A program made the position numbers and the translations under genes. Positions 114-34,584 of a stretch of DNA of 64,000 nt are shown piece by piece. A model generated the notes under the pieces. It was not told the DNA's origin, did not search any database, and saw nothing but the letters and a program-made list of their open reading frames with translations. Within the stretch, counting starts at the first letter, position 1, and every line of letters begins with the position of its first letter. The stretch is from an uncultured Opitutia bacterium (GTDB taxonomy: Bacteria; Verrucomicrobiota; Verrucomicrobiia; Opitutales; Opitutaceae): positions 1 through 64,000 of the forward strand of contig CAIMFY010000014.1 of NCBI GenBank assembly GCA_903840415.1, given 5' to 3'.

Positions 114-201
114 GTTTAGGCGCAATGGCAAGATCTTCCGCTGTGTTGGACGGCAAAGTTTCGCGTTAAACGCCTACAAAAGCCCATGAAATCGGCAGCT
201 G

Positions 202-1812
202 ATGGCAACCCTTCTGTCATTCCATCCCACAGTCAGCGATCATCCGCAAGTTGATCCGAAGTGGCACGATCTGGTTGCGCCCGAAGCGGAGCCAGTCATG
301 GTGTCTCCCTCCATGAGCGGGTCCAACCAACTTCTCACTACCAACCGCAAGGCGCTCACGATTAACCTCGCCGACGCCCAATACGGCACCTTCGCCGAAA
401 TTGGCGCCGGACAGGAAGTCGCACGCGTCTTTTTCCAGGCCGGCGGCGCTTCCAAGACGATCGCGAAGACCATATCGGCCTACGACATGACGTTTAGCGA
501 CGCGATCTACGGCAAGGCGCCGCGCTACGTCTCGCGCGAACGTCTTGGCGAGATGCTCGATCACGAATACCGGTTGCTTCTCGAGCGCCTCGCGGCGCAG
601 CGCGGCGACCGCACCACATTTTTTGCGTTCGCCGACACCGTCGCCACGAAAAACTTCAAGGGCACCAACGAGGCCCACGGCTGGATGGGCGTGCGTTTCC
701 AAACCACCCCCGGCGGTCCGCCGAGCGAGATCATCCTCCACGTGCGCATGTGGGACAAGGATGCCGTCCTCCAGCAACAGGCGCTCGGCATTATCGGCGT
801 CAACGTCATCTACGGAGCATTTTATTTCCGGGCCGATCCGCGGAAATTCATCGAGTCGCTCCTCGACAACCTTAGTGTCGATCGCATCGAGGTCGATATG
901 TTGCAATTCAGCGGCCCGGCTTTCCCCGCGGTGGACAACCGGCTGATGTCGCTCCACCTCGTCCAGTGTGGTCTGACCAACGCCGTGATGTTCGGCCCCG
1001 GTCGCGAAGTGCTCCAGCCGGCGGAAGTGCTCTTCAAGAAAGCCATCCTCGTCGAGCGCGGCAGCTTTCGGCCAGTCACCAAAGTCAACGTCGACATGCT
1101 CAACTGCGCAGCGGCGCAGTTCGTCCAGGAACCGCTCGTCAAGGGCAAGGAAGTCGTCGTCCTGATGGAGATTACGATGAACAACCTCCTCGTCGCCGGC
1201 GAACTCGACGCGCAAGACTGCCTCGCCCGCGTCGATCTGCTCGGCGACATCGGGTTCACCGTCCTCATCTCCAACTACTCAGAATATTTCCGCCTCACCA
1301 CCTACTTCCGTCGCTACACGAAGGAGATGGTTGGCGTGGCTATGGGCGTCAATGTCCTCATCGAAATTTTCAACGAGAAATACTACGAAAATCTCGAGGG
1401 CGGCATCCTCGAATCATTCGGTCGCCTCTTCCGCAACGCGGTCCGCCTCTACATCTACCCGATGCGGCAGGATGCCTACGACAAATTCCTGATGACTGGG
1501 CCGGCCGTGCCGGTGCCCGGCGCGACCAGCGGCCACACCTTTGCCTCGAACGTCCTGATCAACGCCAAGAACGTCCAAGTCGTTGAACACTTGCGCAACC
1601 TCTACAATCACCTCCTCGAGAACCACTACATCGACAGCATCGTCGGCTACGATCCCGATATCCTGCATATTTTCTCCCGTGAAGTCCTCCGCCGGATTAG
1701 TGAAAACGATCCGACGTGGGAGCAGATGGTTCCGGCCGGCGTCGTGCTCGCGATCAAGCAGCGCCGCCTATTCGGTTATCTGCCGCCGCCCGCCATCGCG
1801 GCCTCGGCGTGA
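202..1812 (+). CDS. Conserved protein of unknown function, 536 aa
   Basis: Long soluble-looking protein without signal peptide or membrane segment. Its N-terminal third has a highly conserved-looking block: YGTFAEIGAGQEVAR at residues 61-75, then a Gly-rich stretch with TIAKTISAYDM at 87-96 and KAPRYVSRERL near 105-115. I recall a widespread bacterial family with these blocks and a length of about 480-550 residues. Automatic pipelines label it inconsistently (TonB-dependent receptor, nicotinate-nucleotide adenylyltransferase). Neither label fits: there is no signal peptide or beta-barrel pattern, and I see no nucleotidyltransferase HxGH motif. It stands alone, about 100 bp upstream of the DapF-like gene on the same strand. 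ATG start at 202. Confidence 0.85.
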   Translation: MATLLSFHPTVSDHPQVDPKWHDLVAPEAEPVMVSPSMSGSNQLLTTNRKALTINLADAQYGTFAEIGAGQEVARVFFQAGGASKTIAKTISAYDMTFSDAIYGKAPRYVSRERLGEMLDHEYRLLLERLAAQRGDRTTFFAFADTVATKNFKGTNEAHGWMGVRFQTTPGGPPSEIILHVRMWDKDAVLQQQALGIIGVNVIYGAFYFRADPRKFIESLLDNLSVDRIEVDMLQFSGPAFPAVDNRLMSLHLVQCGLTNAVMFGPGREVLQPAEVLFKKAILVERGSFRPVTKVNVDMLNCAAAQFVQEPLVKGKEVVVLMEITMNNLLVAGELDAQDCLARVDLLGDIGFTVLISNYSEYFRLTTYFRRYTKEMVGVAMGVNVLIEIFNEKYYENLEGGILESFGRLFRNAVRLYIYPMRQDAYDKFLMTGPAVPVPGATSGHTFASNVLINAKNVQVVEHLRNLYNHLLENHYIDSIVGYDPDILHIFSREVLRRISENDPTWEQMVPAGVVLAIKQRRLFGYLPPPAIAASA

Positions 1813-1909
1813 ACTCGCGGTGAAGTAGCGTGGAGTGGGTGGCGAGCAGCCGTGCTCATCGCCGTTTGCTTTCTCATCGCTAAGCGCTACTCACTACTTT
1901 CTCTCGCCC

Positions 1910-2764
1910 ATGCGCTTCCACAAATATCACGCCCTCGGCAACGACTACATCGTGCTCGAACCGCGCGATTTTCCCTCGTGGCAACCCGCCCCGACGGTCG
2001 AACAGATCCGCATCGTCTGCCACCGCAACTTCGGCGTCGGCTCCGACGGCATCCTCTGGGGCCCGCTCCCGTCGCAGCAAAGTGAGTTTGGCCTGCGCAT
2101 CTTCAACCCCGATGGTTCCGAGGCCGAGAAATCCGGCAACGGCCTCCGCATTTTTTCGCGTTTCCTTTGGGATCAGAAACTCGTGCGCCAACCAAACTTC
2201 ACCGTCGAAACGCCCGGTGGCCACGTGCAGGTCGCGATCAAGGACGGCGGCAAACTCCTCACAATCGCTATGGGATCGGTGAGTTTCGACAGCGCGAAGA
2301 TTCCCGTCGCCGGCGCGCCGCGCGAAGTGCTCAACGAGAAAATCACCATCCTCGATCGCGAGCTCACCTACAGTGCCGCGACCATCGGCAACCCGCACTG
2401 CGTAATTCCGCTGCCGGAAATCTCCTCTGCCCTCGCGCACCGCTACGGCCCGCACCTCGAGACGCACCCGAATTTCCCGCGCAAGACCAACGTGCAGTTT
2501 CTCCGCGTTCTCGATCGCGCCAACATCCAGATCGAAATCTGGGAGCGCGGCGCCGGCTATACCCTCGCGTCTGGAAGCAGTTCGAGTGCGTCCGCCGCCG
2601 TCGCCCACCGGCTCGGTCTCGTCGATCGCAGTGTGACGGTCCACATGCCCGGCGGCCAAATCGGCATCGAGATCGGCGATAATTTTTCGATCAGCATGAC
2701 CGGCACGGTGAATAAAGTCGCCGAAGGCACGATGCATCCGGAATTATTCACGGTGCGAGTGTAG
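1910..2764 (+). CDS. dapF: DapF-fold epimerase (diaminopimelate epimerase family) with both catalytic Cys replaced by Ser
   Basis: 284-residue protein starting MRFHKYHALGNDY, which matches the DapF N-terminus (GND at 10-12), so the ATG at 1910 is chosen over the longer open frame. Classical DapF interconverts LL- and meso-diaminopimelate for lysine and peptidoglycan using two cysteines, Cys73 and Cys217 in Haemophilus. Here the first motif reads AEKSGNGLRIF with Ser75, and the second reads ERGAGYTLASGSSSS with Ser221 at the cysteine position. Fold and length otherwise fit the family. I recall other DapF-annotated proteins with the SGNGLRIF motif, so this may be a recognised subclass. Whether it is a true DAP epimerase or acts on another amino acid is open. 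Confidence 0.8.
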   Translation: MRFHKYHALGNDYIVLEPRDFPSWQPAPTVEQIRIVCHRNFGVGSDGILWGPLPSQQSEFGLRIFNPDGSEAEKSGNGLRIFSRFLWDQKLVRQPNFTVETPGGHVQVAIKDGGKLLTIAMGSVSFDSAKIPVAGAPREVLNEKITILDRELTYSAATIGNPHCVIPLPEISSALAHRYGPHLETHPNFPRKTNVQFLRVLDRANIQIEIWERGAGYTLASGSSSSASAAVAHRLGLVDRSVTVHMPGGQIGIEIGDNFSISMTGTVNKVAEGTMHPELFTVRV

Positions 2765-2865: not shown

Positions 2866-4377
2866 GTGCTGGGCTGGCTCGCCGACCTCTTCCGCCTCGT
2901 TTGGGGCCTTCTCTACTGGAACTTGCGCAAAGCCTGGTTCCGGCGGGGCCGTGGCCGGGCGCGCTGCCCGTGCCAGAACCCGAGCGACTCCGGCCGGGCG
3001 TTTGAAACCAGTTGCGAGGCGTGCGTGAACTGGGATGAGCCGGTGCGTTTCCGCCGCGTGTGCCCGCTGCTCGTGACCACGCCGAAGGGCCTGCGCTGCT
3101 CGGCGAACACCGCCGATGTGCGCCCGTTCTGGCTTCGAGTGGCCGGCTGGTATGGCGGCACGTTGTTCGCGATCTATCTCACGGGTGCCATCGCGGTCTT
3201 CACGTTTCTGCGCACTATCGGCTATCCGATCAGCATCGTGCACGTCACTTGGCCCGGACTTTGGTATCGTGTGCCGCAAGCGCGCGGCTGGTTCTTCGTC
3301 CAAAAATCCCAACGTGCGCTTGCCGCCGGACGCACCGCAGAGGGATTGCTCTATCTTTCCAACGCCTACCAATTCGATCCCGGCAACTACCAAATCGCGC
3401 TCACCCTCGCCAAAAACTTTCAGGCCGGCCGGCCGCACGAGTCCGACGCGCTGTTCGAGCGCCTATTGCGCGAACACCCCGCGCAGCGCGACGCCACTGC
3501 ACAGGAGTGGTTCCGCGCGCTGCTCTCCCGTGGGGACTTCCAGAAAATCGCCACCCTGGCCTACACCGAAACACTCGTCGACCAGACCCATGCGCACGTC
3601 TGGATTCGCGCCCTATTGTTTGCAACCCGCCAACTCGGCGACGACACCCGGCTGCGCTCGCTGCTGGCCAATCCGTCGCCTTCCTCCGTCGAGTGGCACC
3701 CGGTGATCAAAATCGAATTGCTGCTGCGCGCGGGCCGCTTGCGCGAAGCCCGCGCCAACCTCGACGGGACGTGGTCGACCCCGGTGTCCCCGTTCATTCT
3801 CTACTATCGTGTTAGCACGCTCACGGCCCTCGGCGACACCTACGCCGCGCTCGATCTCCTTGAGAGCAGTCGTGCGCGCCTCGACGATGACGAAGCCTAC
3901 TTCACGCTGAAACTCGACGCCCTCGCCGCCGCCAGTGCACCGCGCTTGTTGCAGGCAAAACTTGATGAACTTCTCGTTCCCAAGCTCACCCTCTCCCGCG
4001 CGATGGTCCTCTGCGCACACCTGATTCGGCATCCCGATGCGGCGACCTTCGCGCGTCTGCACGAAAAGGTGCAACGCGAGCAACTCCCGCTCGACTCGAC
4101 CAGCGCCGGCGTCTGGTTCACGCTGCTCTGCACGGCCGGCGCCGTCGGTGATTTGCCGCGGTTGCACGCGTTGGTCGTCACACTCAAGCTCGCCGCGAAT
4201 TCCCCCTTCATCGCCGTCAGCGTCATCGAGGCGTTTTTTCGCGGCGAAACCGGCGTTGAAAAGATCACCACCTTTCTCCCCGTGATTCCCCTGCCAATCG
4301 AGATCAACTACGCGCTCATCGAGCGCTACTCGCCGCCTCCGCGCATCAACTTCTTGGCCCCCGCCAAACAGCCATGA
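2866..4377 (+). CDS. Membrane-anchored protein with Cys-rich N-terminus and TPR-like helical repeats, exosortase-linked
   Basis: 503 residues from a GTG start. The first ~90 residues carry six cysteines (34, 36, 50, 53, 66, 78), including CPC and CEAC, suggesting metal binding on the cytoplasmic side. One strong membrane segment follows at about 93-115. The remaining ~370 residues look like alpha-helical TPR-type repeats (e.g. RTAEGLLYLSNAYQFDP, then regularly spaced Leu/Ala-rich helix pairs). The stop overlaps the exosortase start in an ATGA arrangement, so the two are very probably translationally coupled. I do not recognise a named family. A role in presenting or scaffolding substrates of the exosortase is an inference from context only. 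Confidence 0.75.
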   Translation: MLGWLADLFRLVWGLLYWNLRKAWFRRGRGRARCPCQNPSDSGRAFETSCEACVNWDEPVRFRRVCPLLVTTPKGLRCSANTADVRPFWLRVAGWYGGTLFAIYLTGAIAVFTFLRTIGYPISIVHVTWPGLWYRVPQARGWFFVQKSQRALAAGRTAEGLLYLSNAYQFDPGNYQIALTLAKNFQAGRPHESDALFERLLREHPAQRDATAQEWFRALLSRGDFQKIATLAYTETLVDQTHAHVWIRALLFATRQLGDDTRLRSLLANPSPSSVEWHPVIKIELLLRAGRLREARANLDGTWSTPVSPFILYYRVSTLTALGDTYAALDLLESSRARLDDDEAYFTLKLDALAAASAPRLLQAKLDELLVPKLTLSRAMVLCAHLIRHPDAATFARLHEKVQREQLPLDSTSAGVWFTLLCTAGAVGDLPRLHALVVTLKLAANSPFIAVSVIEAFFRGETGVEKITTFLPVIPLPIEINYALIERYSPPPRINFLAPAKQP

Positions 4378-6035
4378 CTCCCGTGGACGAAATCATGGCG
4401 CCACCACCCGTGCGTTCGCTGGTCGCGGCCCTGCGCGATCTGCCATTGGTGGCGAAGTTTTGCGCCGGAGCGGTCGTGCTTTTCGCCATCGCGTTAAGCA
4501 TTCAGCTCTGGCCAGATTGGCGGCAAAACCCCGACCTGTCGCACGGGCTCTTCATGCCGCTGGTTTTTCTGCTCCTACTGCACGAGAGTCGCGCCACCGC
4601 CGCGCCGCGCTGGCTACGAGCGGGCGCGATGACCAATTCCACGCTCGTTGCGCTCGTCGGCGGCGGGTTGGTTGCGTTGTCCGCCGCTGGGCTTTACGCC
4701 GCCGCGCTCGACTGGTCGCACGCGCTCGTAATTTTCGCACTGAGCGCAGCGCTCGCGCTCTTCATCGGCGCCGCCATCGTGGCATTCGCCGGCGAGTCGG
4801 TCCGGCTCGTGCCATGCAATTGGAGCGCCGTGGTCGCCGCGGGCCTCTGGGTGTTGTGCGCGCCGATCCCACCCGGCACCTACACGCGCCTCACACTCGG
4901 CCTCCAACTCTGGGTCAGCGAAAACGTTCTCCGGGCGCTCCATCTGCTCGGCATCGCCGCCGACCGGCACGGCAACATCATCGAACTGGTGCGCGGCAGT
5001 GTGGGCATTGAGGAAGCCTGCAGCGGCGTGCGCAGTCTGATCTCGTGCGTGTTTGCGGGGTTGTTTTTTTCCGCGAGCCTCGTCCGGCGCCCATGGGCGC
5101 GCGTCCTCATCATCGGGCTCTCGGCGCCACTCGCACTCGTGATGAATTTTATTCGTTCGCTGACGCTCACGCTCCTCGCCAACAGCGGCGTGAACATCAC
5201 GGGCACCTGGCACGATGCCACCGGCTTCGCCGTCCTCGGCGTGACCGCCGTCATGCTCGGCGGCCTCGCGCTCCTGCTTGAGCACAGCGAGAAAAAAACC
5301 GCGCGCCCCGCACCGTCTTCCGCCAGCGCCACCTCGCCGGTTTCCGACTCAAGTGTACCTCCGTCACTTGTTCACTTTCCGCTCGCCGGGTTGTGCGCCG
5401 GACTCGCGCTTGCGCTCGCGTTGCTCACCGTCTTCACCCTCAACACCCGCTCGTCGCCCCGCCGCGGCGCGCTGATCCCCGATCTGCGCGCGGTGCTACC
5501 CGAAGCGACGCCCGGCTGGACCATCGTCAACACCGACCTCTACGAATTCAGCGACACCCTGCACACCGATCACCTCGTCCAGCGCACCTACTACAAGACC
5601 ACTCCCGCCGGTCCCGTTCGGATCATTCTCTATCTGGCTTATTGGGCGCCAGGGCAGGCCTCGGTCAGTCTCGTCGCCTCGCATACCCCGGACGCTTGCT
5701 GGCCCGGCTCCGGCTGGGCTCCGCAGACGATCGACCAACCCCGCGAACAACTCGTCGTCGACCGGCGCGCGCTGGCGACGGCGGAAGCCCGCTTCTTCAA
5801 ACTCGGCGACGAACCGGAGTTTGTCTGGTTCTGGCACCTCTACGACGGCCGTCCGATCAACTACCGCGATCCCTACTCCGCGTCCGAACTCCTCCGCATC
5901 GCGCTGCGCTACGGCTTTCGACATGACGGCGATCAACTCTTCGTCCGCGTCTCGTGCAATCGCCCCTGGTCGACCATCGAACACGAACCGCTCATCGCAC
6001 AATTTTTCGCCCGCACGCAGACCCTCGGTCTCTGA
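4374..6035 (+). CDS. Exosortase/archaeosortase family transpeptidase fused to an EpsI-like domain
   Basis: 553-residue polytopic membrane protein. Residues ~1-310 form the exosortase core: SHGLFMPL near 47-54, then the predicted catalytic residues Cys216 in EEACSGVRS, Arg261 in NFIRS and His280 in TWHDATGF. After a Ser/Pro-rich linker and another hydrophobic segment (about 340-360), residues ~370-553 resemble EpsI, with the DACWPGSGW block typical of that domain. Exosortases process C-terminal PEP-CTERM-like sorting signals on exported proteins, often alongside exopolysaccharide export. No PEP-CTERM substrate is visible in this window. The gene overlaps the upstream TPR gene by 4 bp. Confidence 0.92.
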   Translation: MTPVDEIMAPPPVRSLVAALRDLPLVAKFCAGAVVLFAIALSIQLWPDWRQNPDLSHGLFMPLVFLLLLHESRATAAPRWLRAGAMTNSTLVALVGGGLVALSAAGLYAAALDWSHALVIFALSAALALFIGAAIVAFAGESVRLVPCNWSAVVAAGLWVLCAPIPPGTYTRLTLGLQLWVSENVLRALHLLGIAADRHGNIIELVRGSVGIEEACSGVRSLISCVFAGLFFSASLVRRPWARVLIIGLSAPLALVMNFIRSLTLTLLANSGVNITGTWHDATGFAVLGVTAVMLGGLALLLEHSEKKTARPAPSSASATSPVSDSSVPPSLVHFPLAGLCAGLALALALLTVFTLNTRSSPRRGALIPDLRAVLPEATPGWTIVNTDLYEFSDTLHTDHLVQRTYYKTTPAGPVRIILYLAYWAPGQASVSLVASHTPDACWPGSGWAPQTIDQPREQLVVDRRALATAEARFFKLGDEPEFVWFWHLYDGRPINYRDPYSASELLRIALRYGFRHDGDQLFVRVSCNRPWSTIEHEPLIAQFFARTQTLGL

Positions 6036-6040
6036 TCGCC

Positions 6041-6133
6041 ATGCCGCTTCCCGTCACCGCCCTCGAAAAACGCATCCTCGCCGTCTTAGACTTGCTGATT
6101 GTCCTCGGCTTGATCGGCTTCGCCGTCTTGTAA
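6041..6133 (+). CDS. Possible 30-residue single-span membrane peptide in the exosortase locus
   Basis: A short ATG-to-TAA frame begins 5 bp after the exosortase stop and ends 10 bp before the next gene. The peptide starts MPLPVTALEKRIL and continues with an unbroken hydrophobic stretch of about 16 residues, long enough for one membrane pass. Tight packing between two genes and the hydrophobic composition favour a real gene, but GC-rich DNA also produces such frames by chance. Confidence 0.4.
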   Translation: MPLPVTALEKRILAVLDLLIVLGLIGFAVL

Positions 6134-6143
6134 CCGCGCCGCC

Positions 6144-6755
6144 ATGTCCGACGAAACCTTGCCGTCAGGTCGCGCCCGTCCTCCGTGCCCCGCCATTTTT
6201 TCGCTGCTCCCCTGGCTCGTCGCCGCCGGTTTTGCCGCCATCGCTGCCGTGCTTGGACAACGCCAATTCGTCCGCCAGTCCGAGACCGCCTTGCTCCGCG
6301 AGCAGGTCGCAATCGCCGCGATCGAATTAAAGGCTGTTCGCAACGAAATCGCCGCCGAACAAATCCTCGCGCGCCATCAACTTGGCTCCGTCGTTTCGCG
6401 TCCGTCGGACGATCTCGCCGGCCTCAAAATCACACTGCTCTCCTCGCGCTCGAAAAGTTCGCCGCAGGCCAGCGCCGTTGTGGTATGGAATCCTGCGAAA
6501 CAGGAAGGCGTGCTCAAGGTGGAGCAGCTTCCCCTCCCCGCCACCGACCGCGATTACCAGCTCTGGATCATCGAACCGCAGTCTGCCGATCCGGTCGATG
6601 GCGGCGTGTTCGCCGTCGAAGCGTCGACGGGCGTCGCCGACGTGAAATTCACGGGCCGGCAACCCATCGCGACTCTTGAGGCGTTCGCCATTTCGCTTGA
6701 GCGCAAGGGAGGCGTGACCAAACCCGAGGGCCCATTCGTGCTGTTTGGCAAGTAG
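6144..6755 (+). CDS. RskA-like anti-sigma factor C-terminal domain protein, membrane anchored
   Basis: 203 residues with one membrane segment at about 18-38, a probable short coiled coil at 45-75, and a C-terminal region (about 95-203) resembling the extracytoplasmic domain of RskA (anti-sigma-K): VVWNPAKQEGVLKVEQLP, a YQLWIIEP block, and a final FAISLERKGG / PEGPFVLFGK. The cytoplasmic zinc-binding anti-sigma helix bundle usually found before the membrane span is missing; only ~17 residues precede it. No sigma factor is adjacent. It sits last in the exosortase locus, so it may be a structural relative used outside the membrane. Confidence 0.75.
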   Translation: MSDETLPSGRARPPCPAIFSLLPWLVAAGFAAIAAVLGQRQFVRQSETALLREQVAIAAIELKAVRNEIAAEQILARHQLGSVVSRPSDDLAGLKITLLSSRSKSSPQASAVVVWNPAKQEGVLKVEQLPLPATDRDYQLWIIEPQSADPVDGGVFAVEASTGVADVKFTGRQPIATLEAFAISLERKGGVTKPEGPFVLFGK

Positions 6756-6821: not shown

Positions 6822-8009
6822 ATGATCATCAAACCCAAGGTTCGCGGATTCGTTTGCGTCACTGCCCATCCCGAAGGCTGTGCCGCGCACGTGCAGCAGT
6901 GGATCGACCACGTGAAGGCGCAGGGTCCGATCACGCCTGGCCCGAAAAAGGTCTTGGTCATCGGCTCGTCCACCGGCTACGGGCTCGCGTCGCGCGTGGC
7001 TGCGGCGTTCGGATCGGGCGCCGCGACACTCGGTATATTTTTCGAACGCCCCTCCGAGGAGGGCCGCCCCGCGACCCCGGGTTGGTATAACTCGATCGCC
7101 TTCACGAAGGCCGCCCGCGCCGCCGGACTCTACGCGAAGAATCTCAACGGCGATGCATTTTCCGACGACATCAAGCGCCAGGCGCTCGAACTCATCCGCA
7201 CCGATCTGGGGCAGGTTGACCTCGTCGTCTATTCGCTGGCATCGCCGCGGCGCACGCATCCGAAAACGGGCGCCGTGCACCGTTCCTGCCTAAAACCCGT
7301 CGGCCAGCCCTACACCAATAAGACCGTCGATCCCGACAAGGGCATTGTTTCCACCGTCACGATCGATCCGGCCGACGAGCAGGAAGTCGCCGACACTATT
7401 GCCGTGATGGGCGGCGAAGATTGGGAGATGTGGATGCAGGCGCTTTCCGACGCGCACCTCCTCGCCCCCGGCGCGCAAGCCGTGGCCTACTCCTACATCG
7501 GGCCCGAGGTCACGTGGGCCGTCTACAAGAACGGCACCATCGGCCTCGCCAAAAACGATCTGGAGCGCGCGGCGCGCCACATCGATTCGCTACTCAAACT
7601 GAACGGCGGCGGTCGCGCGTTCATCTCGGTGAACAAGGCACTGGTCACGCAGGCCAGCTCCGCGATTCCCGTGGTGCCGCTCTACATAGCGATCCTCTAC
7701 AAAATCATGAAAGCGAAGGGCACGCACGAAGGCTGCATCGAGCAGGTGCAGCGACTGTTCGCCACGCACATGTATGCCGGCAAGACGCCGAAGTTCGACG
7801 AAGCGGGCCGCGTGCGCGTCGACGATTGGGAGATGCGCGCCGAAATTCAAGACGCCGTGCAGGATATCTGGCCGCGCATCACGACTGAAAACCTCGACGC
7901 TGAGACCGACATCGAAGGCTACCGCAGCGAATTTCTGAAACTCTTCGGGTTCGGCCTGCCGGGCATCGATTACGAGGCCGAGACGGAACCGCACGTACCG
8001 ATGCTCTAA
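6822..8009 (+). CDS. fabV: Trans-2-enoyl-ACP/CoA reductase FabV
   Basis: 395 residues, the usual FabV length. It catalyses the NADH-dependent last reduction of fatty acid elongation, replacing FabI. Visible motifs: the start MIIKPKVRGF, the nucleotide-binding GSSTGYG at 48-54, a second conserved region LVVYSLASPRR, and the Y-x8-K active site with Tyr235 and Lys244, the same numbering I recall for characterised FabV enzymes. FabV enzymes are known for low sensitivity to triclosan. dtd follows after 6 bp, so the two are probably cotranscribed. Confidence 0.97.
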   Translation: MIIKPKVRGFVCVTAHPEGCAAHVQQWIDHVKAQGPITPGPKKVLVIGSSTGYGLASRVAAAFGSGAATLGIFFERPSEEGRPATPGWYNSIAFTKAARAAGLYAKNLNGDAFSDDIKRQALELIRTDLGQVDLVVYSLASPRRTHPKTGAVHRSCLKPVGQPYTNKTVDPDKGIVSTVTIDPADEQEVADTIAVMGGEDWEMWMQALSDAHLLAPGAQAVAYSYIGPEVTWAVYKNGTIGLAKNDLERAARHIDSLLKLNGGGRAFISVNKALVTQASSAIPVVPLYIAILYKIMKAKGTHEGCIEQVQRLFATHMYAGKTPKFDEAGRVRVDDWEMRAEIQDAVQDIWPRITTENLDAETDIEGYRSEFLKLFGFGLPGIDYEAETEPHVPML

Positions 8010-8504: not shown

Positions 8505-8683
8505 CCGGTCCCGGTTTCCGGTCGCGTTTTCCCGTGGGCGCGCCATTTTTTCGATCGGAATAGCGGGTTCGGAGCCTTCGACTGTCATGATGCGCAAGAG
8601 TGAAACCATTCTCGTCTCCCCTCCTTTCTCCGTTCGCCGATTCGGTCGAGTCGGGCGCGGGCCGTGCCGCGCTCTGTGTTGCC

Positions 8684-9226
8684 ATGGCTGACACCCCCGA
8701 ACCGCCCCGCGATTTCGCGACCCTCTATCGCACGACCCTCGCGCCGTTGCGGCGCTACCTTGCGCGGCTCCTCGGCAACGCCACCGAGGCGCAGGATATC
8801 GCGCACGACGCCTATTTGCGCGTTTACGCGAGCGTCACTGCGCAGACGTCGGAGCGACCCGAGGCGCTGCTCTACGTCACCGCGCGCCGCCTCGCGATTA
8901 ACCGGCTCAAGCGCCGCAGCATCTCGCCGCTCTCGCGCGAACCAATGAACGAGGCGACCGCCGTTTCCACCACGCCCGGCGTCGCGCAACAAGTCATGGC
9001 ACGCCAGGAACTCGCCCTGCTCGAACGCGCCATCGCCGAACTCCCCGAGGGCTGCCGCACCGTGCTCCTGTTGCGCAAGGTCGAACTCCTCTCCCACCGC
9101 GAAATCGCCGACCGCCTCGGCATCGCGATCAGCACCGTTGAGAAACAGCACGCTCGCGCGCTCCGACTACTCCGCGCCGCGTTGCCCACTGACACCGCCG
9201 GGCAGCACCAGGAGGCCACTTCATGA
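8684..9226 (+). CDS. ECF (FecI-like) RNA polymerase sigma factor
   Basis: 180 residues from the ATG at 8684; the frame is open further upstream but that part is not sigma-like. Region 2 is at about 8-75 (DFATLYRTTLAPLRRYL, then EAQDIAHDAYLRVY) and region 4 at about 115-168 (AELPEGCRTVLLLRKVELLSH, EIADRLGIAISTVEKQ). This is the group that partners with FecR anti-sigma factors and TonB-dependent transducers. Its last codon overlaps the start of the FecR gene (ATGA). It probably directs transcription of the receptor gene downstream. Confidence 0.95.
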   Translation: MADTPEPPRDFATLYRTTLAPLRRYLARLLGNATEAQDIAHDAYLRVYASVTAQTSERPEALLYVTARRLAINRLKRRSISPLSREPMNEATAVSTTPGVAQQVMARQELALLERAIAELPEGCRTVLLLRKVELLSHREIADRLGIAISTVEKQHARALRLLRAALPTDTAGQHQEATS

Positions 9227-10269
9227 ACACACTCTCTCGCCAACCTGATCCCGCCGCCGAGGAGCAAGCGTCACTCTGGGCCGCACGGCTCGAAGGCGGC
9301 ACGCTCTCCGCTACCGATCGCGACGCGCTCGACGCCTGGCTTAACGCCGATACCGCTCATCGCCCGCTGCTCTCCCAATATTGCCAGTTCTCTACCGATC
9401 TTGAGGAGCAACTCCTCACACTCGTCGCGACCGGCAGCGTAAAACTGCCGCCGGAGCCGGAGTCAGCTTCCGCGGAAGAACCGGAACTGGCGCTCGTGAT
9501 TCGAGTTCGCCGCTGGAATTTTCCCCGAGTCGCGAGCATCGCACTCGCCGCCGCCGCGGCCATCGCGCTCACCGTGTGGGTGGCCCGGCCGACGCCGCCA
9601 GTCGCAATCATCGCGACCGCCGCCGCACAGCGCTCCGCCGTCACGCTCGGCGACGGCACCCGCGTCGAACTCAACGCGCACACCAGCCTCACCTTCGCAA
9701 ACAGCGCCAACGAACGGCGCGTGCGGCTCGCGGGTGGCGAAGCGTTTTTCACCGTCAGCAAAGACAAGTCGCGACCCTTCATCATCGAGACCCCAGCCGG
9801 TTCCGTGCGCGTCACTGGCACCGTCTTCAACGTCCGCACCGACACGCCCGCCGACCTCGTGGTCACCGTCGTCGAAGGCTCCGTGCAAGTGCGTCCCGGC
9901 GAACCTGCGACGAGCCGTGACACCGATCCTTACGCGCTCGGCGCCAATGACTGCCTCTCCATCGTGCAGGGCAAGCCGGCGAAGCGCATGCTTTCCGCCG
10001 CCGAACTCGGCGACACGCTTGCGTGGCGGCAGGGGCAGATGGTGTTCAAGGACGTTCCGTTGCGCGATGTCCTCAAGTGGTTCGCCGACTACCACGGTAA
10101 AAAGATCTTTCAGTCCGCCGGGATCGATCAATCGAAGCAGACCGTGAGCGGTCCCTACGGCATCGACGATCTCGAGAGCGCGCTCACCACGCTCGCGACG
10201 TCGTTCGATCTGGACGTCGAGCACGAGCCGAGCGGCACGATCCGGGTGAAATTGAAAGCCGAGCGTTAG
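9223..10269 (+). CDS. FecR-family anti-sigma factor
   Basis: 348 residues. The N-terminal cytoplasmic part (about 10-55, QASLWAARLEGG, ALDAWLNADTAHR) fits the DUF4880-type sigma-binding domain. A single membrane span lies at about 102-122. The periplasmic FecR domain follows at about 130-230 (VTLGDGTRVELNAHTSL, GGEAFFTVSKDKSRPF, VTGTVFNVR). The C-terminus (about 275-345) resembles the DUF4974/STN-like domain that contacts the receptor. The ATG overlaps the sigma factor stop, consistent with fixed stoichiometry. It would hold the sigma factor at the membrane until the receptor signals. Confidence 0.95.
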   Translation: MNTLSRQPDPAAEEQASLWAARLEGGTLSATDRDALDAWLNADTAHRPLLSQYCQFSTDLEEQLLTLVATGSVKLPPEPESASAEEPELALVIRVRRWNFPRVASIALAAAAAIALTVWVARPTPPVAIIATAAAQRSAVTLGDGTRVELNAHTSLTFANSANERRVRLAGGEAFFTVSKDKSRPFIIETPAGSVRVTGTVFNVRTDTPADLVVTVVEGSVQVRPGEPATSRDTDPYALGANDCLSIVQGKPAKRMLSAAELGDTLAWRQGQMVFKDVPLRDVLKWFADYHGKKIFQSAGIDQSKQTVSGPYGIDDLESALTTLATSFDLDVEHEPSGTIRVKLKAER

Positions 10270-10311
10270 ACACGAACCTCGTCCTCCATTCCGCTGTCCT
10301 ACCACTCTCTC

Positions 10312-13300
10312 GTGCTTCGCGTCTTTCGTTTTTACCTTCTGTTCAGCCTGAGTCTCGGCTGTTTCCTCGCTGTCGCATGCGCGGAGCCGCTGACCATCGA
10401 CGTGCCGGCTCAACCGGCGGATCTCGCGCTACTCGCCCTGTCGAGCGAAGCGCACATCGAGGTGCTGTTCTCGTCCAGCGACCTTCATCAAAAAACCTCC
10501 ACGGCGGTCGTCGGGCGTTTCGAGCCGGCGGAAGCGCTGGCCCGCGCCCTCCGGGGCACCGGTTACGAGGCGCGCGCCACGAGCCCAGGAAAATTCGCGG
10601 TGCTGCGCGGCGGCACGCAGACGACTTCGATCAGCGGCCGGCTGGTCGGCCCGGATGGCGTCGGCGTTAGCGGGGTGCGGGTCGCCCTGCCCGCGGTGCA
10701 GCTCTCACGCACCACCGGCGAGAACGGTGAATTCGCGTTCGATACCGTCGCACCCGGCGATTACGAACTCATCGCCAGCGCCTCGCGTTTTCAAACGCTG
10801 CAGCTTTCCGGCCTCCACGCCGTCGCCGGCGAGCCGCTGACGATTCCGACGCACACGCTTCTGGCCGGCACGGAGCCGTCGCGCCTCGCGCCGTTCGTGG
10901 TCGAAGGCAGCACCGATCAGCCGGGCGGGATCGGTGGACACCCGGCGCCGCTGCCGCCGCGCACAGCCGTCGGCAATCTCGACCTTGCGCGCACGGAAGA
11001 TGACGCGATCCCCTTTACCATCCTCGATCGCGAGCACATCCGCCGCAGCGGCGTGGTGAATTTGAATGAGTTTCTCCAACGCGAACTGCTCGACAGCAGC
11101 GCCACCAGCCGTCCGCCCGAGCAGGATGGCACCACCAGCAGTTTCATCACCGGCAGTTCAAATCTCAGTTTGCGCGGATTCGATGCCGACGAGACCATCA
11201 TTCTCGTCAACGGCCGGCGTCTGCCCGAAGCCCTCACGAGCGGCAGCGATGGGCGGCCGCGGATGCCCGACGTAAATTTCATTCCGCTCAGCCTCGTGCA
11301 ACAAGTCGAGGTGCTCCCGATCTCCGCGTCTTCACTCTACAACGGCAATCCCGTCGGCGGCGTGATCAACATCGTGTTGCGACCCGGCGTCGACGCCAAC
11401 TCCACGGAACTCACCGCGACCTATAATAACGCCGTCGGCCGATTCGATGCTCCGCAATCTACGCTATCGCTCCTCAACAGTGAGACGCTGCTGGGAGGCG
11501 CACTCCGGCTGCGGTTCAACTCGAGCACGTCGCGCTCCACGCCCGCCACCGAAGCCGAACTCGGCTATCATCGCCGCGATCTCGCTGCGCCCAGTTCGCT
11601 CGCCGCTTTGATTCACCGCGCTACGCCGAATCTCCACAGCGCCGATCTTTCGCCGCTGTTCGGGCCGGGCACGTCGCCCGTCACTTCGGTAGCGACAGGC
11701 GCAGACGGCACCGGCGGCCTCGGAGCTTTTGCCGGCCGCCAGGGTGTCCGCGATCTCGATCTGTTCAAATCACCGGGCGGCATGGCAGCGTCGCTCGACA
11801 GCAGCGACTACCCGTATGGCCGCGAGCAGCAGCGCACCGTATACTTCGCCTCCGTCGTGGGAGACGTGACTCCATGGCTCCAACTCGGCCTCGACGCCAC
11901 ATACTCCAGCACCGTGGTGCATCGCGGCTACGATGTGTTTGGCGCCGACTTCACGCTCGCAGCCGTTTCACCGCGCAATCCGTTTGGACAGGACGTAGTC
12001 ATCTCGCTTAACGAAACCGCTCGATCACTCGGGCAGGATTACAGCGAGGCGCGGCTTGAGTTTTCGTCTCTTGTCGTCGGCGCAATGGCGAAGTTGCCGC
12101 ACTCGTGGCGGCTCTCGGTCGATGCGCAATACGCGCGCAACCTCACGCGCTTCCGCGGGCTCTATGGCGCCGACGCCAGCCGATGGCAGCAACTCGTGGA
12201 TTCCGGCGGCTACAATCCGCTGCGCGACACGCAGGTCTCCGGTCCGCCCGCCGCCTTCTACGATCAGGTGTTGATTTATCGCGGTGCTCGCGGGCAGTTC
12301 GTGACGCTCGGCGACAACACCAATCTCGACGCCGCGTTTCGCGCGACCAACGAATCGCTGCAACTCCCCACCGGCCCGGCCACACTCAACGTCGGCGGCG
12401 ATTACCGTCGCAGTCATCTCGCCGCCTATCGCGAGGAATTCCGCTACGCCGACGGCTCACTCGCCTCCAATCCGACCGATTGGGCCGCGCGCACTCTGCA
12501 ACGCTACAGCGTCTTCGCCGAACTCCGCGCCCCGCTTCTACCCGCGCGCCACCTTCCCGCCGTGCTTCACGCCATCGACGCCGATCTCGCGGTGCGCTAC
12601 ATCGGCGCCAACTCGACCAAAGAATCCTATGTGGCGCCCACCCTCGGACTGAAACTCGACCTCGGCCACGGCTTCTCGCTGCGCGGCAGCTTCACGACGT
12701 CGAGCCGTTATCCCACGCCGCAGTTAAATCGCCCGGTGGCGGCGCCGTCCACTGGCGGGATCGTCTTGCCCTACACAGAAATGATCTCGGATCCGCGGCG
12801 CGGAAACGCGAGCTACAGCGTCGCGGTGAACCAACTGCCCAATCCCAGCCTGCTGCCGGAGACCGCGCTCACGCAGTCGTTCGGCCTGCTCTTTCAACGC
12901 GGCAAAATCCATCGCGTGCGCGCGACCCTCGACTTCGTCAATACTCACAAAACCAACGAGGAACTTTTTCTCGGCTCGCAGTCACTCGTCGAACTCGAGG
13001 CGCTCTTTCCCAACCGCGTCACCCGCGCACCGCTCGCGCCCGGCGATCCGAACAGCGTGGGCGTCGTGACTTCCGTTCTCACCGGCACGACGAATCTCGC
13101 CTGGCGGCACTCGCAGAACTGGAACGCCTCCGCCGACTACGCGTGGACCGAATGTCTTGGCGGCACACTCGATGTCTATGGCCGCCTGCTTTATTACCAA
13201 CTCTACCGGCGCCAGATTCTGCCCGGCACTCCGGCGGCCGACGAACTCGCGCACCCGGACGGTGCCGGCAACGAGTTGCTGCGCTATCGCACAAATTTCG

Positions 13301-13626
13301 GTGTCGGTTGGTCCACTCGCGACGTCGGTTTCGGACTCGACGGTCGATTTTTTTCTTCACGGGTGTTGCCGGTGAACGAATGGCCCGCGCAAGGCCGCGA
13401 CCGCATCCGGCCCGCCTGGCAGTTCGACACCTACGTCGAATCCGATCTCGGTCGCTGGCTGCCGTGGGATCACGCGCGCCACAGCCTCCGCGCCCAATTG
13501 CGCGTCAACAATGTCTTTGGCGACCGCTTTCCGAAATACGTCAACGAACCGTCTGGCGCCGGCGTTCAACCTTACGGTGACTGGCGTGGGCGCACATACT
13601 CGCTGTCCTTGACGACAAATTTTTGA
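10312..13626 (+). CDS. TonB-dependent outer-membrane receptor/transducer with STN domain
   Basis: 1104 residues from a GTG start 42 bp after fecR. Order: signal peptide (~1-24), secretin/TonB short N-terminal (STN) signalling domain (~26-100), carboxypeptidase-regulatory-like domain (~105-180, ISGRLVGPDGVGVSGVRV), plug domain (~220-350, with LRGFDADETIILVNGRR and NPVGGVINIVL), then a ~750-residue beta-barrel ending in Phe (SLSLTTNF). The STN domain marks it as a transducer that reports ligand binding to the FecR protein upstream. The ligand cannot be read from sequence; it could be a ferric complex or a sugar polymer. The 76 bp after it show nothing clear. Confidence 0.95.
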   Translation: MLRVFRFYLLFSLSLGCFLAVACAEPLTIDVPAQPADLALLALSSEAHIEVLFSSSDLHQKTSTAVVGRFEPAEALARALRGTGYEARATSPGKFAVLRGGTQTTSISGRLVGPDGVGVSGVRVALPAVQLSRTTGENGEFAFDTVAPGDYELIASASRFQTLQLSGLHAVAGEPLTIPTHTLLAGTEPSRLAPFVVEGSTDQPGGIGGHPAPLPPRTAVGNLDLARTEDDAIPFTILDREHIRRSGVVNLNEFLQRELLDSSATSRPPEQDGTTSSFITGSSNLSLRGFDADETIILVNGRRLPEALTSGSDGRPRMPDVNFIPLSLVQQVEVLPISASSLYNGNPVGGVINIVLRPGVDANSTELTATYNNAVGRFDAPQSTLSLLNSETLLGGALRLRFNSSTSRSTPATEAELGYHRRDLAAPSSLAALIHRATPNLHSADLSPLFGPGTSPVTSVATGADGTGGLGAFAGRQGVRDLDLFKSPGGMAASLDSSDYPYGREQQRTVYFASVVGDVTPWLQLGLDATYSSTVVHRGYDVFGADFTLAAVSPRNPFGQDVVISLNETARSLGQDYSEARLEFSSLVVGAMAKLPHSWRLSVDAQYARNLTRFRGLYGADASRWQQLVDSGGYNPLRDTQVSGPPAAFYDQVLIYRGARGQFVTLGDNTNLDAAFRATNESLQLPTGPATLNVGGDYRRSHLAAYREEFRYADGSLASNPTDWAARTLQRYSVFAELRAPLLPARHLPAVLHAIDADLAVRYIGANSTKESYVAPTLGLKLDLGHGFSLRGSFTTSSRYPTPQLNRPVAAPSTGGIVLPYTEMISDPRRGNASYSVAVNQLPNPSLLPETALTQSFGLLFQRGKIHRVRATLDFVNTHKTNEELFLGSQSLVELEALFPNRVTRAPLAPGDPNSVGVVTSVLTGTTNLAWRHSQNWNASADYAWTECLGGTLDVYGRLLYYQLYRRQILPGTPAADELAHPDGAGNELLRYRTNFGVGWSTRDVGFGLDGRFFSSRVLPVNEWPAQGRDRIRPAWQFDTYVESDLGRWLPWDHARHSLRAQLRVNNVFGDRFPKYVNEPSGAGVQPYGDWRGRTYSLSLTTNF

Positions 13627-33477: not shown

Positions 33478-34584
33478 ATGAAAATCCTCGTCATCCAGGA
33501 CTATCTGCGCAGCGGTGGGACGGAGCGGCAATCGGTCTTGCTCGCGAATGCGTTCGCGGCCGCCGGACACGCGACGACGTTGCTGACTTTTCGGCCCGGC
33601 GGCCCGCTCGCGCCCGCCGTTGCCGCCGCCGTGCAGCGACTCATCCTCCAACCCATCGATCTCAGCCTCGACTGGTTTGCGCCGGGACTTTACCGCGCCA
33701 TCGAGCGCAATCCACCTGACATCGTCCTGTGCATGGGCCGAATGGCCAACTGCTGGGCACACGCCATCCACAACGTCCTCGTCGATCGCCAGCCGCACTC
33801 GGCGGTCGTTTGCACAATGCGCACCGGCAAGAAGCTTCCGTGGCTATTCCGCCGTTCGCTCCGCGTCGCGCGCCATATCGTCGCCAACAGCCACGACGCC
33901 CGCGCCACACTCAGATCCCAGCATCACCTCGTCGCTGAAAAGATCTCCGTCATTCACAATTCCCTCGTCTTTCCGGCGGAGTCCGCGCTCTGGCGCAACG
34001 GTCCGCTCCGCGCACAACATGGTGCCACGCCCGCCACGCATGTCATGCTCAATGTCGCCATGTTCCGCCGAGAAAAAGGCCAGCGTGAACTGATCGAGAT
34101 TGTGAGTGGTCTGCCTGATTCGCTCGACTGGCAGCTCTGGCTCGCAGGCGATGGCCCGGAGCGCGCCACCTGTGAGAAACTCGTCGTCGAAAAGCGACTC
34201 GGTGCCCGCGTGAAGTTTCTCGGCCTCATCCGCGACCCGACGCCACTCTACTGCGCCGCCGATCTCGCTGTGCATGCTTCGTGGAGCGAGGCGTTGTCGA
34301 ACTTCTTGATCGAAGCCCAAGCGCACGGCCTCCTCGCGGTCGCCTACGAGGCGCAGGGCATCCGCGAGTGCTTCCTTCCTGGTCGCACCGGCTGGGCCAT
34401 CGCGCGCGACGACCGCACCGCGTTTCGCGATACGCTCACTCGGCGGATGAGCGAGCCCGCCATCGCGCACGCCGAGCGTTCCGCCGACGCCCGCGCCTAT
34501 GCGCGCCAGAACTTCGACACCGCGAGACAGGTTGCAGCCTACCTCGAATTGTTTCAGACACTCCTCGCGACTCCCGCCCCATGA
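33478..34584 (+). CDS. Glycosyltransferase, GT4 (GT-B) family
   Basis: 368 residues with a two-domain GT-B architecture: the N-terminal MKILVIQDYLRSGGTERQ with the glycine-rich acceptor-side loop, and a C-terminal donor domain with LWLAGDGPER (~222), VKFLGLIRDP (~242) and the EALSNFLIEAQAHGL stretch (~263-277) that holds the E-x7-E-type nucleotide-sugar motif. It probably transfers a hexose in cell-surface or lipid glycan synthesis. The stop overlaps the DeoR-type gene start (ATGA). Donor and acceptor are unknown. Confidence 0.92.
   Translation: MKILVIQDYLRSGGTERQSVLLANAFAAAGHATTLLTFRPGGPLAPAVAAAVQRLILQPIDLSLDWFAPGLYRAIERNPPDIVLCMGRMANCWAHAIHNVLVDRQPHSAVVCTMRTGKKLPWLFRRSLRVARHIVANSHDARATLRSQHHLVAEKISVIHNSLVFPAESALWRNGPLRAQHGATPATHVMLNVAMFRREKGQRELIEIVSGLPDSLDWQLWLAGDGPERATCEKLVVEKRLGARVKFLGLIRDPTPLYCAADLAVHASWSEALSNFLIEAQAHGLLAVAYEAQGIRECFLPGRTGWAIARDDRTAFRDTLTRRMSEPAIAHAERSADARAYARQNFDTARQVAAYLELFQTLLATPAP

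Follow-up and report, generated by a model that had tools for sequence, protein, structure and literature searches.

Which of the genes that surround an exosortase work with it? The function of exosortases is established and the enzymes are widespread; to our knowledge, their accessory proteins are poorly defined beyond the exopolysaccharide (EPS) loci of proteobacteria. The question is raised by positions 2866-6755 of contig CAIMFY010000014.1, from an uncultured Opitutia bacterium of the family Opitutaceae, of which we analysed the first 64,000 nucleotides (the window). The order there is dapF, a gene for a protein with tetratricopeptide repeats (TPR), a gene for an exosortase fused to an EpsI domain, a frame for a 30-residue peptide, a gene with an RskA_C domain, and fabV. 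A sequence-only reading of this DNA had cast the TPR protein and the RskA-like protein as dedicated partners of the exosortase in a sorting complex.

The four frames between dapF and fabV are genuine and correctly placed. Taking 150 genomes of the window's family (49 genera) as our comparison set, we found that the locus is made up of three evolutionary units: the TPR and exosortase genes, the gene for the 30-residue micropeptide, and the remnant of an RskA gene. We consider it probable that the exosortase-EpsI fusion processes PEP-CTERM proteins whose genes lie elsewhere, with the help of a dedicated partner, the Cys4-TM-TPR protein (TM, transmembrane span), and that neither the micropeptide nor the RskA stub belongs to this system.

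The exosortase and its probable substrates

The exosortase scored 132.5 bits against the Pfam exosortase profile PF09721 (cut-off 25.7) and 50.4 against TIGR04178 (cut-off 23). Its EpsI part matched PF11984 (DUF3485) at 44.7 bits, above the cut-off of 26.1, and scored 23.2 against TIGR02914, where the cut-off is 42.8. Cys216, Arg261 and His280, the proposed active-site residues that the sequence-only reading had picked out, are all present and are conserved among aligned homologues (94 of 94 for Cys216 and Arg261, 93 of 94 for His280). No named NCBIfam exosortase subtype reached its cut-off: the best was XrtD (144 of the 400 bits required), with XrtA at 75 vs 208 and XrtW at 71.5 vs 425 bits, and in this the enzyme is unlike the named Xrt subfamilies. 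A structure search of the exosortase model against the PDB returned no match at E <= 0.001. By profile and active-site residues, the window enzyme is thus a member of the exosortase family that belongs to none of the named NCBIfam subtypes.

According to PMC1569441, exosortases usually sit among EPS genes. The EpsH/XrtA-type PEP-CTERM systems described there resemble the window system in their multi-span exosortase with Cys, Arg and His residues, their EpsI domain, their scattered PEP-CTERM proteins and their associated TPR protein. The window locus differs in its surroundings. A Pfam scan of 29 of the 38 other window open reading frames of at least 180 residues, plus the 150-residue dtd product, found one glycosyltransferase and no EPS cluster, in agreement with the earlier statement that no EPS genes are nearby; in the relatives examined, the exosortase lies mostly between dapF and fabV rather than beside EPS genes. 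Four loci (L143, L144, L145 and L150) carry a diverged clade of the same exosortase fusion in other neighbourhoods, with glycosyltransferase-like genes recognised by eye, and this clade is possibly an EPS-linked version.

Substrate genes were also said to be lacking nearby, and none of the 17 PEP_CTERM matches listed for the window genome, 16 of them over the cut-off, lies on this contig. Fourteen of the tails are C-terminal, ending no more than 10 residues from the stop codon, and resemble VPEPSTYAxxAGLxxLGFAAxRRR. Candidate substrates are therefore encoded elsewhere in the genome, and we asked how their number varies with the exosortase across the family. Close exosortase homologues were defined at E <= 1e-60, which gave 98 genomes and takes in fragments (for example that in G113) and seven diverged, non-syntenic homologues. 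Genomes with a close homologue had a median of 9 PEP_CTERM matches, vs 1 in those without, these counts being lower bounds in genomes for which only 52 candidates were scored; no match at all was found in 4 of the 98 genomes with the exosortase vs 23 of the 52 without. Nine genomes combine a close homologue with a single PF09721 match, and among these PEP_CTERM matches are numerous in G045 (27), G075 (23) and G014 (15); that the single match is the exosortase of the window type is deduced from the counts for G045 and G075, and the coordinates agree for G014 and for G060. By comparison, where a single PF09721 match was found without a close homologue (22 genomes), the median was 0.5 PEP_CTERM matches and the maximum 8. 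Cleavage of PEP-CTERM proteins encoded elsewhere in the genome is thus the most likely activity of this enzyme.

The TPR protein is co-inherited with the exosortase

We found that the TPR protein and the exosortase occur together throughout the family. A profile of the TPR protein matched 97 of the 150 genomes at E <= 1e-10. We counted 89 of these as having the protein, one of them a partial copy (G016), and scored short or weak matches as absent (G022, G047, G062, G067, G074, G082, G098 and G144, the last a scar fragment matching at 3e-77). On this count, 87 genomes have both proteins, 11 the exosortase alone, 2 the TPR protein alone and 50 neither (Fisher p = 2e-26). The two genomes with the TPR protein alone are drafts of 68-70% completeness. 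Nine of the 49 genera contain both species with the two genes and species with neither, so that joint loss is seen within genera. If the G144 fragment is scored as present, the table changes to 87/11/3/49 (p = 5e-25) and the number of such genera to eight; in either case the TPR protein occurs in only 2 (or 3) of the 52 genomes without the exosortase.

The two genes are also joined in a particular way. The exosortase start codon overlaps the end of the TPR gene by 4 bp (ATGA) in the window, as first described. Our script searched specifically for this arrangement, and 43 of 50 linked pairs have it: the exosortase frame offers a start codon at exactly 4 bp within the end of the TPR gene. Such an overlap suggests that synthesis of the TPR protein is matched to that of the exosortase itself, and the exosortase would be made in step with the TPR protein through translational coupling.

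The TPR protein itself has a constant architecture. Its GTG start is supported because most of 34 aligned orthologues start at or near the same column. All six of the N-terminal cysteines reported for it are present (residues 34, 36, 50, 53, 66 and 78); Cys36, Cys50, Cys66 and Cys78 are invariant in the 34 orthologues, with C34 found in 28 and C53 in 15. This N-terminal Cys4 domain is probably stabilised by metal or by disulfides. The description of the remainder as TPR-like held for the fold, the C-terminal part of the predicted structure (mean pLDDT, the predicted local distance difference test score, of 88) being a TPR-type solenoid, and not for the profile, the Pfam TPR match of the window protein being under the cut-off (23.0 vs 25 bits). 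Among 15 orthologues, Pfam matches at E <= 0.01 were to TPR-type families only, bar one ANAPC3 match. A structure search with the TPR part returned many TPR solenoids, with no outstanding top Z score among the matches listed. The median net charge of residues 1-91 in the orthologues, +9, would place the Cys domain in the cytoplasm and the solenoid in the periplasm, on a charge signal that is itself weak.

The protein is confined to the window's family in the genomes searched. A class-wide profile search at E <= 1e-10 matched 17 of 188 genomes, all among the 18 that belong to this family (G074 weakly), and the same threshold gave no match in 15 genomes of other families of the order. Of 75 named records in which an orthologue of the TPR gene was found, nearly all are metagenome-assembled genomes (MAGs) of Opitutae, Opitutaceae or Verrucomicrobia. 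Two MAG records titled Akkermansia muciniphila (L298 and L300) also carry the gene, and these labels are probably wrong.

How the TPR protein may act

In our model the solenoid, taken as periplasmic, would hold PEP-CTERM substrates (or the EpsI domain) at the active site of the exosortase, presenting the substrates or organising that domain; both the binding of the TPR protein to the exosortase and the holding of substrates are parts that we infer. CtpA-LbcA, a periplasmic protease served by a TPR solenoid, as the PDB titles name it, offers an analogy. Its Z of 11.5 was the highest that VIA-align listed for the TPR region of our model, yet level with those of other TPR solenoids, and the likeness is an analogy only.

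A second reading places the TPR protein in the PEP-CTERM pathway without contact with the exosortase: like PrsT, it would act later or elsewhere, in matrix polysaccharide assembly or outer-membrane delivery, and be co-inherited through common substrates. A precedent exists, since PrsT is a TPR protein associated with PEP-CTERM systems of proteobacteria (PMC1569441 and PMC9850573). This reading also gains from TPR copies that are unlinked from the exosortase, as they often are. From the TPR matches we hand-picked 35 such stretches in 31 genomes, having already noticed PEP-CTERM genes near the TPR gene in G149 and G095 (and on the same contig in a few others). A PEP-CTERM tail was found in 13 of the 35 (11 strong, 2 weak), vs 1.7 expected from the genome-wide counts; when this expectation is doubled, p = 7e-4 for the 11 strong tails. 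The same profile detected tails at 3 of 97 exosortase loci and at 2 of 35 other loci. Three of the 13 tails are encoded directly beside the TPR gene, and most of the others lie 2-6 kb away. The 11 exosortase genomes in which no TPR protein was counted fit this reading as well. Against it stand the 4-bp overlap, which ties the TPR protein to the exosortase rather than to a later step, and the absence of any match of the TPR protein to the PrsT model TIGR02917 at E <= 1. On balance we regard action away from the exosortase as rather unlikely, and favour a partner that works at the enzyme. What appears to be new here is the TPR partner and the overlap of its gene with that of the exosortase; the association of TPR proteins with PEP-CTERM systems was already known through PrsT. 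Titles and abstract openings of the literature on exosortases and PEP-CTERM, TPR proteins and Opitutaceae describe no such TPR protein and no such overlap.

Several observations weigh against a dedicated partner that acts with this exosortase on PEP-CTERM proteins. The window genome holds three further exosortase genes, so its PEP-CTERM tails cannot be assigned to the 4374-6035 enzyme. Some genomes with a single PF09721 match have few PEP_CTERM matches or none (G060, G093 and G141, 0; G085, 1; G091, 3), and G113 has four, with its single PF09721 match on another contig. In seven TPR-positive genomes (G006, G035, G083, G044, G097, G117 and G134) the only close exosortase is diverged and non-syntenic; if these are counted as lacking the exosortase, the table becomes 80/11/9/50 (p = 9e-20), with the TPR protein in 9 of 59 exosortase-less genomes. 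The 11 genomes with the exosortase and no counted TPR protein include all three of genus g30 and four of genus g2, and two of the 11 (G047 and G098) hold fragments of the TPR gene; the partner is therefore not obligatory. Phyletic profiles share ancestry, for which the within-genus count is a partial control, and many of the genomes are drafts. The far side of the membrane span (residues 117-150) also carries a positive charge, +3, which keeps the charge-based topology signal weak. Even so, the data support the TPR protein as a dedicated partner of the exosortase.

The RskA-like gene is a remnant of a sigma/anti-sigma pair

The last gene of the locus had been described as an orphan with an RskA fold, and its product does match PF10099 (RskA_C) above the cut-off (62.8 vs 29.4 bits). 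We found no match to the anti-sigma domain in this protein; that domain is present at 36 of the 98 loci. Nor is there a cognate extracytoplasmic function (ECF) sigma gene between the micropeptide and RskA genes in the window, the rest of the genome not having been searched for one. Many close relatives have about 0.9 kb more DNA between the peptide and RskA genes, and there they encode a SigK-like ECF sigma factor and, after it, a complete RskA with the N-terminal anti-sigma domain. All three elements (sigma gene, anti-sigma domain and RskA_C) occur at 36 of 98 loci. Another 17, including that of the window, show RskA_C alone of the three, and no locus has just one of the sigma gene and the anti-sigma domain. 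The 36 complete loci resemble SigK-RskA in having a SigK-like ECF sigma factor and then an anti-sigma factor with an N-terminal domain, one span and RskA_C. The window copy is unlike that pair in lacking the adjoining sigma gene and the anti-sigma domain, and other lineages lose even RskA_C, down to a tail, a span and a helix. These comparisons indicate that the window gene is the leftover of a SigK-type sigma/anti-sigma pair. The proposed role of the RskA-like protein as a sorting partner is not supported: the gene is missing beside the exosortase in many relatives, because it derives from a SigK-type anti-sigma factor, of which the sigma gene and the sigma-binding domain are missing in the window.

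The amputation appears to have happened repeatedly. A same-genus relative (G025), whose exosortase is 74% identical, retains both the sigma gene and the anti-sigma domain. On the exosortase tree, which covers 94 of the 98 loci, supported branches require at least 10 changes between the states with sigma and with stub (a tally that adds stubs with an eroded or diverged RskA_C), and the fewest-change count gives 13. The tree alone cannot separate gain from loss; from shared position and homology we infer that the changes are losses. In six loci (L080, L082, L083, L085, L100 and L138) stubs of 81-113 residues consist of the tail, span and juxtamembrane helix only, and RskA_C has apparently been lost more than once.

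Such a history could describe a decaying pseudogene, uninformative on function. RskA_C is gone from the six loci just named, and for 7 of 9 orphan RskA pairs the ratio of nonsynonymous to synonymous divergence (dN/dS) is higher than for the exosortase next to them. The ratios of the orphans, however, lie well below 1 in all nine pairs (0.26-0.51, rough values, since most pairs have a dS close to 1 or higher), the orphan frames stay open across multi-species clades, and the short tail, span and juxtamembrane helix are kept in nearly all stubs, even those without RskA_C. This points to purifying selection on the stubs, to the extent that rough dN/dS values allow, and we judge plain decay to be unlikely. 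In the literature on RskA/SigK and orphan anti-sigma factors, titles and abstract openings do not describe such stubs.

The intact pair seems to serve itself. In sigma-bearing loci among L052-L151, an ECF-type promoter-like element, GCATCY-N16-CGTATG, lies between the micropeptide and sigma genes, and in the alignment of sigma-bearing loci at least 85% of the rows listed have GCATC...CGTA ahead of the sigma gene. Of 30 genomes searched genome-wide, 17 bear the sigma gene, and 16 of these have the strict element at its expected place (G135 has a variant there); no consistent second site was found. With one mismatch allowed, the 17 sigma-bearing genomes had 16.8 sites on average vs 15.6 in the 13 others. 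Without a consistent second strict copy in the genomes searched, the SigK-like sigma factor seems to control itself and not the exosortase or PEP-CTERM genes. Control of those genes through GCATCY-N16-CGTATG was rejected for this motif; a looser regulon lies outside the reach of the test.

The micropeptide is an independent gene

The 30-codon frame, first noted as a possible membrane peptide, proved to be a real gene. Of the 97 loci with room for it, 78 have it directly after the exosortase, and it encodes 29-32 residues in nearly all. An alignment of 37 micropeptides shows three invariant residues (M1, T6 and E9) and three that are nearly invariant (L13, L22 and G23); divergence at the three codon positions is 0.42/0.25/0.53 in 67 sequences, and all 13 close pairs compared have a lower dN than dS. 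These patterns indicate that the frame is under purifying selection.

The peptide was a natural candidate for a partner of the exosortase, following it at 30 of 30 loci (the window's included) and then at 78 of 97. Genomes that lack the enzyme and carry the peptide ruled this out. Exactly one copy is found by profile in 132 of the 150 family genomes, and presence does not depend on the exosortase (89 of 98 genomes with it vs 43 of 52 without, p = 0.19). Six of the eight genomes with no PF09721 match at all contain the peptide, which is therefore not an exosortase part. In G093, where the exosortase is elsewhere, the micropeptide stays beside the sigma, RskA and fabV genes. It is thus an independent membrane gene found across the family.

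In other families of the order, 11 of 15 genomes match the micropeptide at E <= 0.01 and 7 at E <= 1e-5. These relatives lie mostly in other contexts, one (L224) having dapF 1.3 kb upstream; in L216 and L225 the relative directly follows a gene whose product has an N-terminus that looks like a twin-arginine translocation (Tat) signal. No Pfam or NCBIfam model matched the micropeptide at E <= 1, and titles and abstract openings of the literature on exosortases and on small proteins of this group do not describe it. CydX and KdpF are small single-span membrane proteins. The micropeptide resembles them in its length of about 30 residues, its single hydrophobic span, its single copy and its conservation, and differs in matching no Pfam or NCBIfam model and in its varied genomic contexts outside the family. 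Our guess is that it serves an envelope complex, either as a small subunit or by stabilising it.

Shared losses and the extent of the system

The losses themselves bear on whether the TPR and exosortase genes are simply linked passengers, removed as one DNA segment and sharing no function. The TPR gene adjoins the exosortase in 53 of 98 stretches, and some losses do look like single events. In G054, G066, G080 and G103, dapF lies 10-126 bp from the micropeptide on contiguous DNA, with TPR and exosortase genes absent between. In G062, one open frame (L151/L230) joins TPR residues 1-44 to exosortase residues 426-553, and in G144 another (C96:3092-4036) joins TPR residues 1-174 to exosortase residues 390-552; each frame looks like the scar of one in-frame deletion that removed the middle of the two genes together. 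The association nevertheless persists where the two genes are far apart or on different contigs, and PEP-CTERM tails lie near many unlinked TPR copies. The idea is weakened to the point of being very unlikely, and co-occurrence, co-loss, overlap, scars and unlinked association together uphold the TPR half of the originally proposed partnership.

A single sorting complex of all four proteins, the original model, could draw on the micropeptide directly after the exosortase and on RskA and TPR genes adjacent in many relatives, but it is largely refuted, and highly improbable, given the micropeptides of exosortase-less genomes, the G093 arrangement, and sigma-RskA pairs kept without a window-type exosortase in G018, G022, G054, G062 and G066 (G018, G022 and G062 having no PF09721 match at all).

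Organisation of the locus and neighbouring genes

The closest genes to the locus are dapF, the fabV-type reductase gene, a D-tyrosyl-tRNA deacylase gene and a set encoding a sigma factor, FecR and a TonB-dependent receptor (Table 1). This last set, just downstream at 8600-13626, looks like a FecI-type system; against the SigK-like profile its ECF sigma factor scores lower (174 bits vs 261-349). Upstream of dapF, 202-1812 encodes a 536-residue protein that is kept at this place in many relatives and has no Pfam match at E <= 1e-8.

Table 1. Features of the window discussed in the text (aa, amino acids; residue numbers refer to the TPR protein).
Feature	Position	Strand	Remarks
Cys4-TM-TPR membrane protein	2866..4377	+	503 aa, GTG start
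TPR protein, N-terminal domain	residues 1-88		four invariant Cys
TPR protein, membrane span	residues 89-118		taken from predicted long helix
TPR protein, TPR-type alpha-solenoid	residues ~124 to 490		predicted fold
Exosortase (PF09721) with C-terminal EpsI/DUF3485 domain	4374..6035	+	553 aa
Single-span micropeptide MPLPVTALEKRILAVLDLLIVLGLIGFAVL	6041..6133	+	30 aa
Orphan RskA remnant	6144..6755	+	short cytoplasmic tail, TM, juxtamembrane helix and RskA_C
dapF (diaminopimelate epimerase), left flank	1835..2764	+	frequent neighbourhood border, 50/98 stretches
fabV-type enoyl reductase, right flank	6822..8009	+	frequent neighbourhood border, 67/98 stretches
Glycosyltransferase	33478-34581		Pfam scan; 27 kb from exosortase

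Significance

The micropeptide and the repeated sigma/anti-sigma amputation are the more unusual by-products of this analysis. One speculative view, which we hold to be unlikely, is that the micropeptide (single-copy, near-universal in the family and with relatives in sister families), rather than the exosortase, forms the constant core of the locus. In the window's family it would often make up a membrane module with the RskA TM-helix stub left once the sigma factor and the sigma-binding domain are deleted; the TPR-exosortase cassette would plug into and out of this module, and anti-sigma factors would repeatedly have become small structural membrane proteins. Both by-products are easily overlooked when a single genome is read: the micropeptide, found once in each of 132 of the 150 genomes, matches no Pfam or NCBIfam model, and the joint disappearance of the sigma factor and the sigma-binding half, with the membrane half apparently kept under selection, amounts to a repeated evolutionary experiment. 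For the exosortase itself, a co-inherited Cys4-TPR partner provides a concrete handle on substrate recognition or delivery at a PEP-CTERM exosortase.

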